From contig NZ_CP029287.2 of assembly GCF_003201675.2 (NCBI RefSeq), forward strand, positions 2,406,001-2,470,000: a stretch of DNA of 64,000 nt. The letters are read 5' to 3'. Origin of the DNA: Metallosphaera hakonensis JCM 8857 = DSM 7519. GTDB taxonomy: Archaea; Thermoproteota; Thermoprotei_A; Sulfolobales; Sulfolobaceae. The notes beneath the pieces were generated by a model. The model did no database searches. It was not told where the DNA came from and saw only the letters and a list, made by a program, of their open reading frames with translations. Positions 10,361-17,947 of the stretch are shown in pieces (the first letter of the stretch is position 1; each line of letters begins with the position of its first letter). The translations under genes were made by a program, and so were the position numbers.

Positions 10361-10687
10361 CTAGTTCGTATTTTTCAGTTCGATTTCTTCTGTTCTGATT
10401 TTCTTTGCAGTCAAAACCGCGATTTTAAACTCTACATCCTCAATCTCCTCTCTAATTTTCCTCCATTTGTTCAATAAATTCAAAAGTCTCTCACCTTTTT
10501 CAGTGAGGCACTTTACGTTGTCCTTGTTGGAGATAAAATGTCCCTCCTCTAACTCTTTCAAGTACTTAGTGAGAAGCTCGTAACTTAGATTTGCCCTATA
10601 CATGATCTCTGTTTTCCTACCGCCCAGTGAGCATACAGTAAGTATGTCGGCGTAGATCTCCAGTTTTCCCCGTCTTTTCCCTGGCAT
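10361..10687 (-). CDS. Small winged-helix DNA-binding protein
   Basis: A 108-aa protein of the archaeal winged-helix type with a C-terminal coiled helix. The pattern TEIMYRANLSYELLTKYLKEL followed by LTEKGERLL is characteristic of this group. It is a paralogue of the gene at 17672-17947; together the two bracket the signal-peptidase/secreted-protein region. The last 30 residues are charged and probably dimerise. The family acts in transcription or chromatin; the target is not visible. Confidence 0.8.
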   Translation of the reverse strand: MPGKRRGKLEIYADILTVCSLGGRKTEIMYRANLSYELLTKYLKELEEGHFISNKDNVKCLTEKGERLLNLLNKWRKIREEIEDVEFKIAVLTAKKIRTEEIELKNTN

Positions 10688-11042
10688 AAGTAGTAGTGGA
10701 AATCTCTATATTTAAGTTGATTCTGATGTTTCTGATAAGTGATTTGTCAAAAGAACGGGAACGGTGTCAAATCTTCAAGGGCGTGAAGGAGAAGGCTATT
10801 TCAAAATCAATAATTATTTTCTAAAAGCAGTGCAATATTAAATGATGCCCCCTAATCTATGGGTGATTTAATATTCCAGGTATTCGGGTCTTCATCGGAA
10901 ATTCTTATATCTTGATCTCAATTAGGCGTTTGGTGAAGAAACAGCTGGCTGTATCCAGGAATGAAGGGAGTAAAAAGTCATTTTATAATAATATTATTAC
11001 AATAATAATGAAATAAATTCATGAGTTATACTTTAGCGCAAC
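10688..11042. other. Intergenic stretch before the IS1-type element
   Basis: About 350 A/T-rich bases with no open frame of note and no recognised repeat. The upstream promoter of the winged-helix gene should lie at its left edge (TAAATATAGAGATTTCCAC on the minus strand). Confidence 0.4.
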
Positions 11043-12209
11043 GGGAGTGTTCTCATGCAGTCATCTTATTCGATAACTACCTGTAAAATTATATTAGATG
11101 AGCTCTAATATGCTGTACTCCCCTCAAATAGGCCAGGTTCAAGGGAGTCTCCTCGCTGAAGAAAACATGCGGGTTCATGACGTTCAACAGGGCCAGGCTG
11201 TAGTCCGTCATCCCTCTGCTCCTGTTGACGGCCTTCGTGTCCCTGGCTAGCCGAGCTAAGTGCGACCTACAGAACGAGTTGTAACTCTCCGCGGTGTGGG
11301 TGTACTTCTTGCCCACGACGTGGTGATCTAGGACTTGATAGATTGAGTAGGCATCGGTGTAGTGGACCTCGCACTTGGGAAGAGAACTCCAGAGGAAGCT
11401 GAAGGTGTTGTAGTCCCTGTCGCCGGTGACGAAGAAGGGAACTCCGTCGACCAGGGCGTTCCAGATCCAGAGGTTCTGTCGTCTAGGACCGCGTCTCACG
11501 TGTACGTAAGTCCAGCTCTCGTCTATGACTCCAAGCTTTGCCCTGAAGGCCTTCAATTGGGCTTGCAGGATCAACAGGTTAACGTAGGCCTTCAAGCCGG
11601 CCCTCTTCACCAGGCTGTAGACCGTGGTCAAGGGCCTTCCCTCAACCTTGGATATTCCCCTCAAGCTCATCCTGTTGGTGTACTCCTTCAAGATTCTCTC
11701 CCTCTGCTCCCTGCTCATCCTGTGACTCGCGTCGTAAAAGGTCCTCCCGCAGACCTTACACCTGTACTTGCTCTTCCCTCTTGACGAACCGTTCTTGACC
11801 ACGCGGTCCGAGTTGCAGGAAGGACATCTCGGCCTCGCGTCCTTTCTTCTCTTGATCCCGAGTTTCTTGATGTAATAATACAAAGTGGAGGGCGGTATCT
11901 TGAGCTTGGTGACCTGCACTCCCATCACGTAAGCGTGGCGAATGCGATTTCCTCTGGTCTGTGCTTTCGGGGCCTAAGGTTTAAATTTCTTAGGACGAGA
12001 AGTATAAGTTGTGCGAGGGCTACGAGGTTCATGGCACCTACCTAAAGAACCTCGAGGTCCTCGCACATAAGTCTTTTCAATCCCACGCGTCCTCAAGTCT
12101 TCAAGTCCACTCGTTTCAACGACCACAAAAGTCCTTGAAGAGATTTCTGCCTCGCATTAATATTTTTACAGGTACTTATCGAATAAGATGACTGCATGAG
12201 AACACTCCC
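11043..12209 (-). mobile_element. IS1-type insertion sequence, about 1167 bp
   Basis: The element is bounded by long inverted repeats that start GGGAGTGTTCTCATGCAGTC and extend about 47 bp with few mismatches (11043-11091 and 12161-12209). It carries one transposase gene on the minus strand. Size and single-ORF architecture recall ISC1173-type elements of Sulfolobus (from memory, not a search). The region 11935-12080 outside the gene is also conserved in the remnant at 25022-25257. Confidence 0.85.
11089..11928 (-). CDS. IS1-family transposase with zinc ribbon
   Basis: A 279-aa transposase. After a short helical start comes a C4 zinc ribbon (CPSCNSDRVVKNG ... CKVCGRTFYD), then a helix-turn-helix (MSLRGISKVEGRPLTTVYSL) and an IS1-type DDE core: GVIDESWTYV, YTDAYSIYQV and HTAESYNSFCRSHLARLARD. 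InsA-like and InsB-like parts are fused into one frame, unlike bacterial IS1, which needs frameshifting. The last codons lie within the terminal inverted repeat. The start is GTG/ATG at 11928/11925. Probably intact and active-looking. Confidence 0.88.
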   Translation of the reverse strand: MMGVQVTKLKIPPSTLYYYIKKLGIKRRKDARPRCPSCNSDRVVKNGSSRGKSKYRCKVCGRTFYDASHRMSREQRERILKEYTNRMSLRGISKVEGRPLTTVYSLVKRAGLKAYVNLLILQAQLKAFRAKLGVIDESWTYVHVRRGPRRQNLWIWNALVDGVPFFVTGDRDYNTFSFLWSSLPKCEVHYTDAYSIYQVLDHHVVGKKYTHTAESYNSFCRSHLARLARDTKAVNRSRGMTDYSLALLNVMNPHVFFSEETPLNLAYLRGVQHIRAHLI

Positions 12210-12289
12210 GGGAGTACAGCATATTAGAGCTCATCTAATATATTTTTACAGGTACTTATCGAATAAGATGACTGCATGAGAACACTCCC
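12210..12289 (+). mobile_element. 80-bp solo end of a second, inverted copy of the IS1-type element
   Basis: These 80 bases are the reverse complement of 11043-11122 with about two mismatches and even encode the last residues of the transposase (GVQHIRAHLI, then stop) on the plus strand. They abut the complete element end-to-end with no spacer, giving two consecutive CACTCCC ends. Confidence 0.88.
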
Positions 12290-12368: not shown

Positions 12369-13070
12369 TCACTCAGTTAATTGGTAGCCGTACAAGTTCA
12401 GATAGTAGTCGAACGTAGTTTGACTAGGAGCTCCAGGATTATTAACTAACAATTCGACTATCAATATATCGTATCCAGGGTGTCCACCAGTTAGAACTAC
12501 TCCTCCTGTAGTGTAGTGCTGATTTACATTTAGGGTAGCTAGCAGAGTGAACTGAACTCCACCTAGGCTTATTTGTCCTGTCTTAGCTTGTGAAGAGCTC
12601 TGAGATATGGGTATCATGTTATTCGCGAACAGAAGTTTAGAGTTCAATGTAGAGGTGTTAGGATATGCCAGTATAAGGAATCCGATATTTTGATCTACGC
12701 TAGATGGCGAGAAATGCGGTTGCTCTATGGAGGCATTTACTAGAAGCGTTCCGTTACCGTTGTATTGGACGTCCACTACTTTCCAAACGTATATCGCAGT
12801 GTATGAGTTATTTTCATCGTTCATAAGATTAGTAGCTGGCGCACTTCCTGGTCCTACTTCAGGAAGATTAACTGTTAATTGGCCGCCGCTATTTACAGTG
12901 GCAAAATTCTCTAAGGGCTGAATCTCTATAAGGGCATCGTGGCTATTTATGTTTACCACGCTTCCTCCTACGTCAGTCCCAATACTGAAGCCCACAAGAA
13001 ACATCTGGGCAAACAGCACTGTGGCCAACGCGACTAACACGGATATTGCGGATATGGTTTTTAGATTCAC
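12369..13070 (-). CDS. Secreted or surface beta-rich protein with class I signal sequence
   Basis: A 233-aa protein starting with GTG at 13070. The N-terminus (MNLKTISAISVLVALATVLF) is a basic then hydrophobic signal segment, followed by a serine/threonine/asparagine-rich, beta-prone mature part with several N-glycosylation sequons (NNS, NAS, NTS) and no cysteine. There is no C-terminal membrane anchor. A TATA-like TTTAAATAG lies about 40 bp upstream. It neighbours a SipW-like signal peptidase operon (14429-16924). By size and composition it could be a fibre subunit such as the Sulfolobus threads or TasA-like bundling pili; this is inference. Confidence 0.6.
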   Translation of the reverse strand: MNLKTISAISVLVALATVLFAQMFLVGFSIGTDVGGSVVNINSHDALIEIQPLENFATVNSGGQLTVNLPEVGPGSAPATNLMNDENNSYTAIYVWKVVDVQYNGNGTLLVNASIEQPHFSPSSVDQNIGFLILAYPNTSTLNSKLLFANNMIPISQSSSQAKTGQISLGGVQFTLLATLNVNQHYTTGGVVLTGGHPGYDILIVELLVNNPGAPSQTTFDYYLNLYGYQLTE

Positions 13071-13466
13071 GTTTCCACTGAATAAACCTTACTGGGTTCG
13101 GGCTATTTAAATTAAATTCAGCATATAAAAATAAAATATATATCAAAGTTATTGTAGTATATATCATAGAGCCTGAGTTGTATCTATGAGAACCCAGATG
13201 AGGCCAAAGCTAAACGTTGGGGTTTCTGATTTGGTTCATGGTCCTATGAATAGGCTTAATCATGAGTGATTTTAAGGTCTAACCGGGCTTTCGCATAATG
13301 AGAGAAGCCTTCTAGGTTTGGCTTCCTATAGTGCAAGAGCTTCTAAGGGGATATAATATAATTAGATATAACCTCGGTATAATATTATAGATAACTCTGG
13401 TTAATATTATAGATAACTCTAGGATAGGTTGACTGTATGAGAACACTCCCGATTTCTTGCTTTTCA
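13071..13466. other. Intergenic stretch with tandem repeat and a solo IS1-type end
   Basis: Two near copies of TAATATTATAGATAACTCT lie in tandem at about 13379-13421, directly before an end of the IS1-type element (GGTTGACTGTATGAGAACACTCCC at 13427-13450). No opposite end is found nearby, so this is a solo remnant. The left part shows only the A/T-rich promoter region of the secreted-protein gene. Confidence 0.6.
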
Positions 13467-13628
13467 GGGCGATCCACGTCTCCATTGCGAATTCAGTTTA
13501 TTTAGCATCTATCAAATGAATTCAATTGAACGATCTCCCTTAACTAGGTAAGGATTCGCTCTTTATAGTTCCCTATATTCGATCTGTCCTAGCCATAATT
13601 ACAATTCGCGATTGACACCTGAATGGCC
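13467..13628. repeat. 162-bp MITE of the IS256-like family
   Basis: The ends GGGCGATCCACGTCTCCATT and AATTCGCGATTGACACCTGA (then ATGGCC) form imperfect inverted repeats sharing the TTGCGAATT block with the IS256-like element at 55590-58059. The core aligns with the copy at 62324-62486 and, inverted, with those near 20985-21145, 35223-35389 and 48385-48510. Non-coding. Confidence 0.8.
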
Positions 13629-13630
13629 TT

Positions 13631-14200
13631 TCATTTCTTTATAGGCTCGTCTATTGACGAAGTTAATAAATTAATATTTCTAGCTATTTGAGCTATAAGT
13701 ACAAGAATAATCCCTATAAATAGGATAATATTTCCATATAAAACGATTTTATACTGCAATGACGACATTAATTCCGATAACGGTCCCAACACAATTTCCG
13801 AGATAACAACGATAGCTAGTATTTTACCTGCTATTGCATAATGTCTTATCATGTTGATCCTGGTCTCAACGCTACCGAAATCGTTGGCCTTCTTCAGCAC
13901 GAGCTCAAGTTGGGCCTTTATGGGGCCGAACCTTTTGATAACCTCGTTGTAAATATCACCCCATTCCCTTCCCTGAAGGTTAGAGATGTAAACTATGAGA
14001 TCGTCAATGAGGCTAAACGTTTCTCCTTGAGATAACAAGTCAGTCAGGGCTATTAAGAAGTCGACAGTCTTAACGTTGAGTATTTTACCCTTGATCCGTT
14101 CTATTCTTGCAACGTAGTAATTAAATACTCTCCACAGAAGTATGGCACTAATCGCAGATAAGATCACATTGATGAGCTCAAGCACAATAGAAAACGACAT
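13631..14200 (-). CDS. Membrane protein of unknown function beside the signal peptidase operon
   Basis: A 189-aa protein with one N-terminal membrane span (about 5-25), a long charged cytosolic region (about 30-120, with amphipathic helices) and two C-terminal spans (about 122-142 and 150-172). No family is recognised; the topology is loosely like small archaeal secretion-platform proteins but lacks a diagnostic motif. ATG at 14200 is the start. It is divergent from the signal peptidase gene 228 bp away and lies between it and the secreted 233-aa protein, so a shared surface-structure role is possible. Confidence 0.6.
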   Translation of the reverse strand: MSFSIVLELINVILSAISAILLWRVFNYYVARIERIKGKILNVKTVDFLIALTDLLSQGETFSLIDDLIVYISNLQGREWGDIYNEVIKRFGPIKAQLELVLKKANDFGSVETRINMIRHYAIAGKILAIVVISEIVLGPLSELMSSLQYKIVLYGNIILFIGIILVLIAQIARNINLLTSSIDEPIKK

Positions 14201-14363
14201 TATTCATAAGTTACCGGACTTAACTTAAAGGATAGCTATGTGTCCATGGAGCGTGATATATATCATGGGCAAACATAGTAGGGGTAGCTGGATCAAATCC
14301 CTTCGTTCATAAATATCATTTACACTCGAAAGTAGTTATTAGATTTAATTGAAATGAGAGCGT

Positions 14364-14376
14364 TTTAAATATATAT
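14364..14376 (+). promoter_or_regulatory. TATA box of the signal peptidase operon
   Basis: TTTTAAATATATA preceded by GCG is a strong archaeal TATA box. The ATG at 14429 lies about 55 bp downstream, after GGAAGGTGA, which can act as a ribosome site, so this transcript has a short leader. Confidence 0.6.
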
Positions 14377-14428
14377 TTTTATTAGAAGAGAACCATGACA
14401 CTAATCTTCTATATGGAAGGTGAACTTT

Positions 14429-15541
14429 ATGGATAATCCTCTGCTGCTAGCTGTTTGGGAGTATGTGAAACCAGTTCTCAATGTCCTATTCAAGTTACTC
14501 TTAATAATAATCCTGGTTTTCTCTATTGCAGTCGTATCAGCTAACTTAGACGGTAGGCCTCTGTTCGTGGCCTTCACCAACGGCTACAGCATGTATCCTT
14601 TCCTCAAGCCCGGCGAACTTGTATTGATCGTACCGGAACCTTTGGCAGGAAAGATTGACGTTGGAAACATAGTGGTGTTTCATGACCCAGACTACGGTAA
14701 AATACCTGGATATCCTCCCTACATAATTCATCAGGTTGTGAATATAACGAAAGGTGGCCTCATAACTAAGGGAATAAACGACAATTACGTGGATCAGTTA
14801 TACATGCCTCCAGTTACCAATGGCCAGATTTACGGAAAGTTGCTAGTGGTAGATGGAAACCCAGTGGTGGTTCCTGGAATAGGCTCCCTGGTTTACTACC
14901 TTGAAAACGATTCCCTAGAGGGGGTAATGGTACTCACTGTGATCGGGGTTGCCTTTCTTGTGCTGGACTCTTCACTTGATAGGAGAAAGAGAAGAAGAGA
15001 AATTAACATTTCAACCAGGGGAGTGATGATAGGTATAGGTATCATTATAGTGTCGTTTACCGTGATATCCTCTCTAGCAATGTCTTTCTCAGCTACTTTC
15101 TCGTATTTCGCCGCATCAGGACCAGTGGAAGTGGCGGGAGGAGCTATAAATACCCCCTCCATAAATCTAGGCGTCTTAACTCCAGGAAAGACGGGGACTT
15201 ATGTGATTAATGTCAGTAACAAGATCATGCTTCCCGAATACGTGGAAATCTCCTCCGTAAGGAGCTCCTCTACAGCATATTACAACGTTACTCCCACCAG
15301 CGCGATCTTAATGCCCTCCCAAACCTTACACCTTAAGTTCACAGCGATAAATAACGGATCCAAGGGCCTGAACCTGGTCGTGGTTAAGGCCTTCGTTATC
15401 CCCACCCTGTTCCCACTCACTGCCTTAGAAGCTCAGTTTTCAAACTTTCCTTTGGCATTGCTACTGATTAGCGCCCTTCTTAGTACATTGCCATTTATAT
15501 TGTTCATTTACCTATTGAGGTTGAAAAAAGATGATTGGTAA
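14429..15541 (+). CDS. SipW-like signal peptidase I with extra membrane-anchored Ig-like domain
   Basis: A 370-aa protein. Residues about 1-150 form an archaeal/ER-type type I signal peptidase: a membrane span, catalytic Ser54 in NGYSMYPFLKPGE, a histidine in the YPPYIIHQVV motif (H101) and TKGINDN, which replaces the bacterial TKGDNN-type motif. Archaeal enzymes use Ser-His rather than Ser-Lys. The second half is unusual: two membrane spans enclosing a beta-rich external domain (about 200-310), then a final span and a lysine tail. ATG at 14429 is preferred over GTG 14420 because GGAAGGTGA precedes it. It is the first gene of a three-gene operon and overlaps the next by 11 bp. Confidence 0.82.
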   Translation: MDNPLLLAVWEYVKPVLNVLFKLLLIIILVFSIAVVSANLDGRPLFVAFTNGYSMYPFLKPGELVLIVPEPLAGKIDVGNIVVFHDPDYGKIPGYPPYIIHQVVNITKGGLITKGINDNYVDQLYMPPVTNGQIYGKLLVVDGNPVVVPGIGSLVYYLENDSLEGVMVLTVIGVAFLVLDSSLDRRKRRREINISTRGVMIGIGIIIVSFTVISSLAMSFSATFSYFAASGPVEVAGGAINTPSINLGVLTPGKTGTYVINVSNKIMLPEYVEISSVRSSSTAYYNVTPTSAILMPSQTLHLKFTAINNGSKGLNLVVVKAFVIPTLFPLTALEAQFSNFPLALLLISALLSTLPFILFIYLLRLKKDDW

Positions 15542-15974
15542 AATAACCCTAATCGTGTTTATTACTGCGGTTGCCTCTCTCCTGTTCTTCTCCTCTTTCA
15601 TGCCGGGGTTCAGCATCTCCAATTCGGGCTACCTTGAGCTTGGGCCCACCATGGCATACGGCTCGGTTCAGTACGTTGGCCCCTCAGGAAACTCCACGAC
15701 TTACTCGTTGTACTCTCTTTCGTTAAACGACATTTACTTGGTATCGTTCACTAATCAGGTTCAGATCGTGGTGTCATGTCCCTATGCCAGTGTGGTCTCC
15801 ATCAGCACAAATGGTCACTACGTTGTGCAGGGAGACCAGGTAATAATACAGGATAACCTATTCCCGTATGTCAACATTATCTATAATTCCACACATCAGC
15901 CTCAACCCACTATCTTAGTGCAAATGAGTATAGGCCAAGGAAGTCTTGGAGTAATAGGGGTCGATTCAGCATGA
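15531..15974 (+). CDS. Small secreted protein in the signal peptidase operon
   Basis: A 147-aa protein with a strong N-terminal hydrophobic signal (KITLIVFITAVASLLFFSSF) and a short beta-prone, glycosylatable mature region (NST, NSTH). It has no second membrane segment, so it is probably released or held by its uncleaved signal. No family is recognised. The gene overlaps the peptidase gene by 11 bp and the next gene by 4 bp (ATGA). It is a likely substrate or minor fibre component of this system; that is inference from the operon. Confidence 0.65.
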   Translation: MIGKITLIVFITAVASLLFFSSFMPGFSISNSGYLELGPTMAYGSVQYVGPSGNSTTYSLYSLSLNDIYLVSFTNQVQIVVSCPYASVVSISTNGHYVVQGDQVIIQDNLFPYVNIIYNSTHQPQPTILVQMSIGQGSLGVIGVDSA

Positions 15975-16924
15975 GAACGCGGATGACCATGTTGGGCATA
16001 GCCATAACTTTGTTGTTTCTTGCGTTAGCCAGCACAATGTTCTACTACGGTTACGCATCCAACGTTCCTTACGTTAAAACGTACCAGATCCCATCGTATT
16101 CTTATCAGGCTCAATTGAACTTATGGGATAATTTTCATATCAACGATTCCATATTATTTAACAATCAGACATGTATAAATTCTTCCTCAATGTTCTCCAA
16201 ATTAGTTGAGGGAGTAAACCTCATGGGGAACATATCGGTAGTCTCCAATGGGCCAATAGTTTACAACGGAAGTTACGTTATCTACCAATACATTCAAACC
16301 TCCGAGTGGTCCAAGTTCATTGGAGAGGTAAGAGGAGACATATCCGATTCCTCCCCAATCCTCTTCAAGATTACACCAAACGTAACTTATCTCAACAATC
16401 TAACTCAGAAGATCAACAACCAAGTGGGGTTGAGTTACACTCACTTCTCCCTGAAGGTAGTCGTCTTCGCTAATCTGACCCTTCACCATGGGAATTACAC
16501 GGTTCCCGTATCTCTTGAGAAAAGTATGCAAGTTTACTTCGGCTCAATTAATTACTCAGTGAGTCAGGATCCTGGAGGGAACGTAACTCAAACCTTCTAT
16601 CACGATAGCGTGATTCATGGGATGACGGGTTACAATAGGATGTTATTCTTATCTGGAGGAGTTTTTGCGGTATTCGGTGGCATATCATTCATGTACGGTT
16701 CAAAGGTGGAGGGAGCCGTGAGTCCAGAGGTCTTGGCCGAGAGGACCATAAGAAGGTTATCGGTCAAAGGTGCGCTTCCCCATTCTAGTCTTCCCGTAGT
16801 GAAGGTAAATAGCGCGCGAGGGTTCCTGAGAATGGTAAAAACATTGAATAGGGTACCAGTGGAGTTCGATAATGGTTTCTACTTCATCGACTCGGACACG
16901 TTCTATGTATGGTATAGAAGTTAA
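15971..16924 (+). CDS. Membrane-anchored exported protein, DUF5305-like
   Basis: A 317-aa protein with an N-terminal signal/anchor (TMLGIAITLLFLALASTMFY), a long external beta-rich, N-glycosylatable domain (about 30-215), a second span (RMLFLSGGVFAVFGGISFMY, about 218-240) and a basic cytosolic tail of about 75 residues. This layout resembles archaeal DUF5305 proteins that accompany signal peptidases, though I cannot confirm the family. It is the third gene of the operon (ATGA overlap). It may be an assembly or capping factor for the secreted partner. Confidence 0.6.
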   Translation: MRTRMTMLGIAITLLFLALASTMFYYGYASNVPYVKTYQIPSYSYQAQLNLWDNFHINDSILFNNQTCINSSSMFSKLVEGVNLMGNISVVSNGPIVYNGSYVIYQYIQTSEWSKFIGEVRGDISDSSPILFKITPNVTYLNNLTQKINNQVGLSYTHFSLKVVVFANLTLHHGNYTVPVSLEKSMQVYFGSINYSVSQDPGGNVTQTFYHDSVIHGMTGYNRMLFLSGGVFAVFGGISFMYGSKVEGAVSPEVLAERTIRRLSVKGALPHSSLPVVKVNSARGFLRMVKTLNRVPVEFDNGFYFIDSDTFYVWYRS

Positions 16925-17372: not shown

Positions 17373-17671
17373 TGTCCTGGGAAAAAGTTAAAAATGAGAT
17401 AGGCGTGGTATTATGATAAATTACCTAATATTGTTCGTTAACACTAGAATAGAAGCATAGTATCTTCTATCTCTCTTTTAGATAAACTTCTAGAATTATT
17501 TAACCTGTTAACATAGAAAAAACCTATGAGTCAGTTCGTACCACTTCCACTTTTATGAGTTCGTGATTGAGCTCAAAGATTTGACAGAGTTCCCATAACT
17601 CTGGCAATATCATGACATCTAGTAAACATTATAATTTATAAGTTAAGTCTGTTAATTAACTTCGAAAGTTT
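17373..17671. other. Intergenic stretch before the winged-helix gene
   Basis: About 300 A/T-rich bases with no gene. The promoter of the next gene is probably the ATTATAATTTATAAG patch near 17628-17643, about 30-40 bp before the ATG. Confidence 0.4.
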
Positions 17672-17947
17672 ATGGTTAGAAGATCAAGAGAAGAAATAAT
17701 CTTAAGTGTCTTGGAGGGGTGCTCCGGGATGGGGGCCAACAAAACCAACCTGATGTATAGGTCAGGTCTTAATTACGACTCGTTCTTAAGATATTTGAAC
17801 CATCTTATGCAAACAGGGTTAATATCATTCTCAGACGGCAAGTATAGATTGACCCGTAAGGGTTTACAGATTATGGAGAAGCTCCAAAAATATGCTGAGA
17901 TTAAGAGAAACCTTGAGGAAACCAGAAAATTACTCTCTGACGTTTAA
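17672..17947 (+). CDS. Small winged-helix DNA-binding protein (paralogue)
   Basis: A 91-aa protein with the same plan as 10361-10687: TNLMYRSGLNYDSFLRYLNHL, a glycine-containing wing, LTRKGLQIMEKL and a C-terminal charged helix (LQKYAEIKRNLEETRKLL) that likely forms a dimer coiled coil. Such proteins are common small archaeal regulators or chromatin proteins. It follows the signal peptidase operon in the same direction but with about 750 bp of repeat-filled space, so it is probably separately transcribed. Confidence 0.82.
   Translation: MVRRSREEIILSVLEGCSGMGANKTNLMYRSGLNYDSFLRYLNHLMQTGLISFSDGKYRLTRKGLQIMEKLQKYAEIKRNLEETRKLLSDV

Follow-up and report, generated by a model that had tools for sequence, protein, structure and literature searches.

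The presence of a SipW-like signal peptidase gene among genes for exported and membrane proteins raises the question of what such a peptidase would process and to what end. We analysed this locus within the window (the whole stretch of 64,000 nt of DNA under study), which comes from a thermophilic and acidophilic archaeon. Our reading, held at a probability of about 0.6, is that these genes form a dedicated SipW-like cassette for exporting and assembling a donor-strand surface fibre of the TasA/Abp kind, the fibre being predicted from its genes.

Results

All genes on which the first-pass annotation had based its proposal of a fibre system were found in the sequence. Two lie on the minus strand: the gene for a 233-aa secreted protein (12369–13070), the proposed major fibre subunit, with a hydrophobic N-terminus and orthologues beside the peptidase; and that for a 189-aa membrane protein with three transmembrane (TM) segments (13631–14200), a conserved companion with a homologue near the cassette at almost every Sulfolobaceae locus (hhalign 98% between type A and type B). 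On the plus strand, the peptidase ORF (14420–15541) overlaps by 11 nt the gene for a 147-aa exported protein (15531–15974), the proposed minor or cap subunit, which in turn overlaps the gene for a 317-aa membrane protein (15971–16924) by 4 nt (ATGA). These overlaps make plausible the translational coupling of the peptidase to two exported-protein genes that had been claimed. By reading the sequence ahead of the peptidase operon we recognised a TATA-box-like stretch, ttttaaatatatatt (14363–14377, plus strand); TGATATATATCA at 14254, also before the peptidase gene, occurs in few copies and is weakly above chance. Scans with sigma-70-type promoter and terminator models, which are not meant for archaea, stayed at chance level.

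The locus is framed by two paralogous winged-helix genes, as the earlier reading had it, and both products, of 108 aa (10361–10687, minus strand) and 91 aa (17672–17947, plus strand), match profiles of the HTH_45/Sso10a family. Upstream of each gene lies a palindrome that is a candidate operator, TTTGACA-N15-TGACAAA (10743–10771) for the 108-aa regulator and TTTGACA-N15-TGGCAAT (17580–17608) for the 91-aa regulator, with exact forms of the palindrome in M. javensis and one further genome (G102). A search for an operator common to the regulator and the structural genes picked up the palindrome ahead of the regulator genes only.

The peptidase ORF opens with GTG at 14420. Since GGAAGGTGA stands directly ahead of ATG 14429 and orthologues begin at this same position, the latter is the likelier start, giving a SipW-like signal peptidase I of about 370 aa (14429–15541, plus strand). 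Ser57, His104 and Asp125 (numbered from GTG 14420) are invariant in 15 sequences; the window peptidase scores 50.1 bits against TIGR02228, slightly below the cut-off of 51.85, and all 15 members match this model. The catalytic Ser/His/Asp and the family score thus point to an archaeal-type (S26B) signal peptidase I. The SipW model matches seven of the 15 long peptidases, the profile of the entire peptidase found no match among PDB sequences, and the same genome additionally encodes a short peptidase of 143 aa. The long enzyme is built of the catalytic part, a TM segment, a cytoplasmic loop, a second TM segment, a putative Ig-like ectodomain (15074–15460, plus strand) and a C-terminal TM segment. 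The AlphaFold2 model of the ectodomain has a pLDDT of 42, and its top matches, all weak, are MSP/SPD-2/PapD-like; as the model is poor, we set the Foldseek matches (MSP/SPD-2/HYDIN PapD-like) aside as signs of kinship. The peptidase had been described as bearing an extra external Ig-like domain: the second outside domain stands, while its Ig-like fold, perhaps MSP/PapD-like, is plausible at low confidence.

The 233-aa protein carries a single N-terminal hydrophobic segment (residues 8–26) and four N-glycosylation sequons, which agrees with its earlier description as secreted and glycosylatable; the 147-aa protein has one hydrophobic segment and two sequons. Both share a signal-peptide motif, FLVGFSIGT (residues 24–32) in the 233-aa protein and FMPGFSISN in the 147-aa protein. 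The pattern [FW]x[PAVT][GA]Fx[VIL][SG][NT], chosen post hoc, has 16 matches among the 1324 ORFs of the loci examined, against 0.045 expected from shuffles, and all 16 belong to the 233- or 147-family. The likeness stops short of the mature body, and homology was not detected between the mature parts of the two proteins. Judged by eye, the N-termini (MNLKTISAISV and MIGKITLIVF) have no class III (prepilin) site ahead of the hydrophobic segments, as had been noted before, and a type IV pilus was rejected on this ground.

The 233-aa family found no match in family libraries and no PDB sequence match in a profile search at E<=10. Neither exported protein matches the TasA/camelysin family (PF12389, TIGR04088), and PF06510 (DUF1102) does not match the 233-aa protein; a PF06510 search in 60 relatives was likewise negative and is uninformative, since the controls were also unmatched. 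In profile–profile comparison, the 233-aa family reached 42% against DUF1102-type subunits with the signal peptide and 7% without it. AlphaFold2 gave an all-beta model of the 233-aa protein with a pLDDT of 45, and Foldseek found no match to it at E<=0.001; matches to phage tailspikes and viral jelly rolls were not taken as kinship because of the poor model. The low quality of this model and that of the ectodomain follows from the AlphaFold2 input, which was limited to the window and M. javensis sequences.

The 317-aa protein consists of an N-terminal TM segment, a glycosylatable ectodomain, a second TM segment and a cytoplasmic tail, with 11 N-glycosylation sequons between the two TM segments. 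Its M. javensis orthologue scores 29.8 bits against PF17231 (gathering score 29), and the window copy, 62% identical to that orthologue, scores 12.9 bits, below the cut-off. By sequence, the protein can be assigned to the DUF5305 family (PF17231).

The synteny check in Sulfolobales that had been suggested gave a positive result. In five genomes (G032, G042, G050, G146 and G159), S. acidocaldarius among them, the 233-aa protein, the peptidase, the small exported protein and the membrane protein are encoded in this order on one strand, the small gene being recognised by position in G032 and G146. The gap between the gene for the 233-aa orthologue and the peptidase gene downstream of it measures 44–48 nt in five genomes, and the protein is 88% conserved between Metallosphaera species. 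It is present in 9 of 31 Sulfolobaceae genomes, eight of which have at the locus a long peptidase of the close kind, type A, compared with 0 of the remaining 22 (Fisher 1e-6, ignoring relatedness). Type B relatives within the family have a long peptidase homologous over its full length (hhalign 99.6%, 298 columns) and a 430–490-aa protein homologous to the 317-aa protein (97%). One genome (G155) keeps the 233-aa gene, with transposon genes in the places expected for the peptidase and DUF5305 genes, so the 233-aa protein may not strictly need these two partners. By coordinates, the S. acidocaldarius locus would be Saci_1793–1796, with Saci_1793 as the 233-aa homologue and Saci_1794 as the peptidase.

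Beyond the family, a peptidase gene is adjacent in 12 of 20 DUF5305 loci and an HTH_45 gene is present in 9 of 20. In other Thermoproteota, the peptidase and DUF5305 pair lies beside HTH_45 regulators and TasA/camelysin- and AbpX-like secreted proteins, with matches to TasA (Pfam M73, 9e-13; PDB 8AUR, 2.8e-4), to AbpX in locus L106 (PDB 9SJ2, E 4.5e-8) and, more weakly, to AbpX in L107 (E 0.02). In haloarchaea the pair adjoins DUF1102-type proteins. The order secreted protein, signal peptidase, small protein, DUF5305 protein is kept in locus L129, which has an additional Ig-rich gene, and in two haloarchaeal plasmids; peptidase homology with these cassettes reaches 99.8% over 289 columns. In DUF1102-type cassettes, minor and major subunits are homologous whether or not signal peptides are removed. 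A tblastn search of plasmids with DUF5305 gave no match, the L129 peptidase query found matches in plasmids, and viral contigs searched for relatives of the locus yielded none.

Discussion

Of the SipW/TasA-like logic that the first-pass annotation had proposed, the core is strongly supported by the recurrence of the peptidase and DUF5305 pair beside TasA-, AbpX- and DUF1102-type proteins; that a fibre forms, how the 233-aa protein folds and that a donor strand is used are carried forward as predictions. TasA and AbpX are known donor-strand fibre proteins. Since gene sets of like composition in other genomes include fibre proteins of the TasA and bundling-pilus types, the genes probably specify a surface fibre new to Sulfolobus-type archaea.

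An unlikely but credible alternative has the peptidase and the DUF5305 protein process and present a surface protein that does not polymerise, be it a coat, an adhesive protein or one associated with the S-layer; the 233-aa protein would then be monomeric or coat the cell. It would fit a family that shows no recognisable TasA, AbpX or DUF1102 homology once the signal peptide is removed, and a fifth S. acidocaldarius filament has not been reported; however, TasA- and AbpX-type fibre proteins occur in the related peptidase/DUF5305/HTH_45 cassettes, and a second, minor protein sharing the N-terminal motif is easier to reconcile with a fibre than with a coat. We consider improbable a secreted antagonistic or signalling pair, bacteriocin-like as the sulfolobicins are, in which the peptidase and membrane protein would serve maturation or immunity and the winged-helix proteins regulation. 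A small secreted pair with a dedicated peptidase, nearby regulators and a patchy distribution would suit it, yet the cassette spans Sulfolobaceae to haloarchaea with DUF1102/TasA-type partners, and the 233-aa protein is well conserved between Metallosphaera species, as most antagonistic proteins are not. The sulfolobicin locus (Saci_1371/1372) is distinct from the peptidase/233-aa locus. An ordinary spare signal peptidase with chance neighbours deserves virtually no weight: membrane- and exported-protein genes are common and every functional step here is inferred, but a gene order conserved in several Thermoproteota families and in Haloarchaea refutes a chance neighbourhood, and the gene overlaps and the separate housekeeping peptidase also speak against it.

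For the donor-strand fibre, we infer the peptidase–substrate pairing, the subunit fold, strand exchange and fibre formation, together with the roles of the ectodomain, the DUF5305 protein and the regulators, as follows. The 233-aa protein would cross the membrane through Sec and be processed by a peptidase of its own, not by the short housekeeping enzyme. The 147-aa protein, with the same cleavage-site motif, would be cut by the same enzyme and may start or cap the fibre, as TapA, the minor subunit, does for the TasA fibre. The peptidase ectodomain could keep cut subunits held at the membrane until the next subunit takes the new N-terminal strand, the DUF5305 protein could serve as membrane platform or anchor, and the two winged-helix proteins, sharing one operator, may regulate the locus. 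A fuller version, which we offer tentatively and well short of even odds, would make this a fifth Sulfolobus filament with a subunit family that has no known relative, a peptidase whose PapD-like chaperone domain unites cutting with donor-strand hand-over, a DUF5305 platform, and a plan extending from Sulfolobales to haloarchaea.

S. acidocaldarius is among the leading models of archaeal surface filaments; the presumed Saci_1793–1796 locus predicts a further cell-surface polymer, immediately testable in a genetically tractable strain; if the prediction is true, its filament would be the fifth there. One recurring archaeal cassette joins DUF5305, HTH_45 regulators, DUF1102/TasA/Abp-type subunits and a two-domain signal peptidase, and it supplies candidate assembly factors for donor-strand fibres. 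A literature search on DUF5305 or DUF1102 terms found no paper, and one on the locus none beyond a BarR ChIP study.

Among known systems, four filaments have been described for S. acidocaldarius, none assigned to the peptidase/233-aa locus (PMC11607397). The thread (Saci_0406) resembles the predicted fibre in its published features: Sec secretion with a class I signal, glycosylation and a beta-rich build. It differs in belonging to a separate locus, Saci_0404–0409, for which no peptidase has been described (PMC9715654); the same paper calls the route of thread assembly unknown. Identity of the 233-aa protein with the thread was rejected on this different locus in S. acidocaldarius and on the absence of a PDB match, though thread structures are published.

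With the Bacillus tapA-sipW-tasA (and camelysin) operon the locus shares a dedicated S26B peptidase (S/H/D) beside major and minor secreted proteins; here too, by gene arrangement and the separate short peptidase, a dedicated peptidase is coupled to the genes of its predicted secreted substrates. Unlike the Bacillus operon, the peptidase here has a second ectodomain and extra TM segments, a DUF5305 protein and HTH_45 regulators are added, and the 233-aa protein has no recognisable TasA similarity. The link to archaeal bundling pili (AbpA/AbpX) lies in the AbpX-like proteins inside the peptidase–DUF5305–winged-helix clusters of L106 and L107, whose peptidases are of another build with a long N-terminal membrane part, whereas the 233-aa family has no sequence similarity to any chain in the PDB, AbpX included. 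The haloarchaeal cassettes have a DUF1102-like major subunit, weakly so in Halarchaeum and unrecognised in Halobaculum, and HTH_45 genes were not seen directly beside the cassettes of these two; they nevertheless share with our locus a peptidase homologous over its full length and the same order of DUF1102-type protein, signal peptidase I, small protein and DUF5305 protein.

Gene layout and flanking regulators

The window (2406001-2470000) lies within a complete genome of 2.54 Mb, whose closest named relative is Metallosphaera javensis. On the + strand, the signal peptidase gene (likely start ATG 14429) comes first, followed by the gene for a 147-aa exported protein, which overlaps it by 11 nt, and by that for a 317-aa membrane protein, which overlaps the 147-aa gene by 4 nt. 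The - strand carries the gene of a 233-aa secreted protein as well as that of a membrane protein of 189 aa, and the whole set is flanked on both sides by winged-helix genes, both of the HTH_45/Sso10a family. The gene set and the two flanking regulators described in the first-pass annotation were borne out. An insertion element (11042-12289) separates the left regulator from the 233-aa gene; it encodes a 279-aa transposase (11089-11928), and its 51-nt inverted repeats (11042-11092 versus 12160-12210) are 96% complementary. Its right end is duplicated (12160-12209 and 12240-12289), and a relic with 74% similarity lies at 13401-13450.

A TTTGACA-N15-TGTCAAA-like palindrome lies upstream of the 108-aa winged-helix gene (10743-10771) and of the 91-aa one (17580-17608); the distance is ~55-95 nt for both paralogues in the window, in the Metallosphaera genome G102 and in M. 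javensis. By whole-genome search, the copy ahead of the 108-aa gene is the genome's only one at one mismatch, and at two mismatches the background about equals that of a control pattern. Judging from these upstream sequences, the two winged-helix genes look co-regulated with each other.

Conservation in Sulfolobaceae

In five related genomes (G032, G042, G050, G146 and G159), the 233-aa gene is found on the same strand, 44-48 nt upstream of the peptidase, with a small exported gene and then a 317-aa homologue downstream, and with winged-helix and 189-aa homologues near the cassette; the small gene of G032 and G146 falls below the homology-search threshold and was assigned from position and N-terminus. 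The 233-aa gene is reversed in the window's Metallosphaera, G084 and G102. Among the 31 family genomes, the 233-aa protein is present in 9, the long peptidase in 17 and a short peptidase (~140 aa) in 26, the window's genome among them. A close relative of the window's long peptidase (type A) accompanies 8 of the 9 233-aa genes. At most of the remaining long peptidases (type B), a 167-187-aa secreted protein with a weak DUF1102 match replaces the 233-aa protein; these loci also encode a small exported protein (103-117 aa) and a homologue of the 317-aa protein that is 430-495 aa long. In profile comparison the two types matched each other at 99.6% for the peptidase, 97% for the 317-aa and 98% for the 189-aa protein.

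The remaining one of the nine, genome G155 (locus L049, 9150-12000), retains its 233-aa homologue and carries transposon genes at the expected site of the peptidase, 147-aa and 317-aa genes. Where ordinary archaeal peptidases have a KGDN box, the long peptidases of Sulfolobaceae have KG[IV][NH] (residues 117-120 in the window), and D125, beyond this box, is invariant among them.

We take G042 to be S. acidocaldarius DSM 639; its 317-aa homologue ends at 1563679. BarR ChIP peaks have been reported at 1563444, within Saci_1796, and at 1563826, a short way beyond its 3' end (PMC4977709). Since 1563679 falls between the two peaks, this homologue is very probably Saci_1796, and by counting the other cassette genes would be Saci_1795, 1794 and 1793. 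The peaks (locus L044) stand at the operon's 3' end, ahead of the winged-helix gene Saci_1797 (PMC4977709), whose expression was unchanged in a barR deletion (PMC4977709).

Proposed major and minor subunits and a proposed mechanism

The small protein of DUF1102-type cassettes is a paralogue of the major protein in shortened form (95-97% with signal peptides, 66-92% without). In the window's type, the 233- and 147-aa families have their signal peptide and the start of the mature chain in common (70%, E 4e-5), and comparison without signal peptides detected no homology between their mature bodies. The shared N-terminal motif, [FW]x[PAVT][GA]Fx[VIL][SG][NT], is absent from all other ORFs (16 matches among 1324 examined; 0.045 expected from shuffles, a figure that is a guide only because the motif was defined after the sequences had been seen).

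We propose that a single dedicated peptidase cuts both proteins at this same motif, that cleavage frees an N-terminus which would act as donor strand, and that the minor protein may start or end the polymer. The peptidase ectodomain could hold subunits; a possible PapD/MSP-like fold is hinted at only by a choice_anch_D match below threshold (E 0.11) and by weak Foldseek matches obtained with a poor query model.

The cassette beyond Sulfolobaceae

The 317-aa family corresponds to DUF5305. At 20 DUF5305 loci sampled from other Thermoproteota, an adjacent signal peptidase was found in 12 and an HTH_45 gene in 9. Locus L129 encodes, in order, an HTH_45 protein, a DUF1102 protein, a peptidase with the same ectodomain, a small exported protein and an Ig-rich protein, followed by the beginning of a DUF5305-type gene, assigned from position and resemblance. 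A DUF7344 regulator-like protein lies immediately upstream of the DUF1102 gene, next to HTH_45, in L129 (2425-2919), the cassette of G203. On haloarchaeal plasmids, the order secreted protein, peptidase, small protein, DUF5305 recurs in Halobaculum and Halarchaeum, and the peptidase adjoins DUF5305 in Natrialba, Halostagnicola and Halocatena. The peptidase homology spans the full length including the ectodomain (99.8%, 289 columns); outside Sulfolobaceae, this ectodomain occurs in only 2 genomes among the 398 Thermoproteota searched, one of them already in the query.

Most peptidase-bearing DUF5305 loci of other Thermoproteota also encode ~200-aa secreted proteins. Some of these are TasA/camelysin proteins, above cut-off in Pfam and NCBIfam, and in PDB searches some match the fibre protein TasA (2.8e-4) or AbpX of archaeal bundling pili (4.5e-8). 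The first-pass reading of the locus as a SipW/TasA-like fibre system, whose filament itself is predicted, gains partial support from the recurring conserved cassette and from these TasA/AbpX-type neighbours elsewhere.
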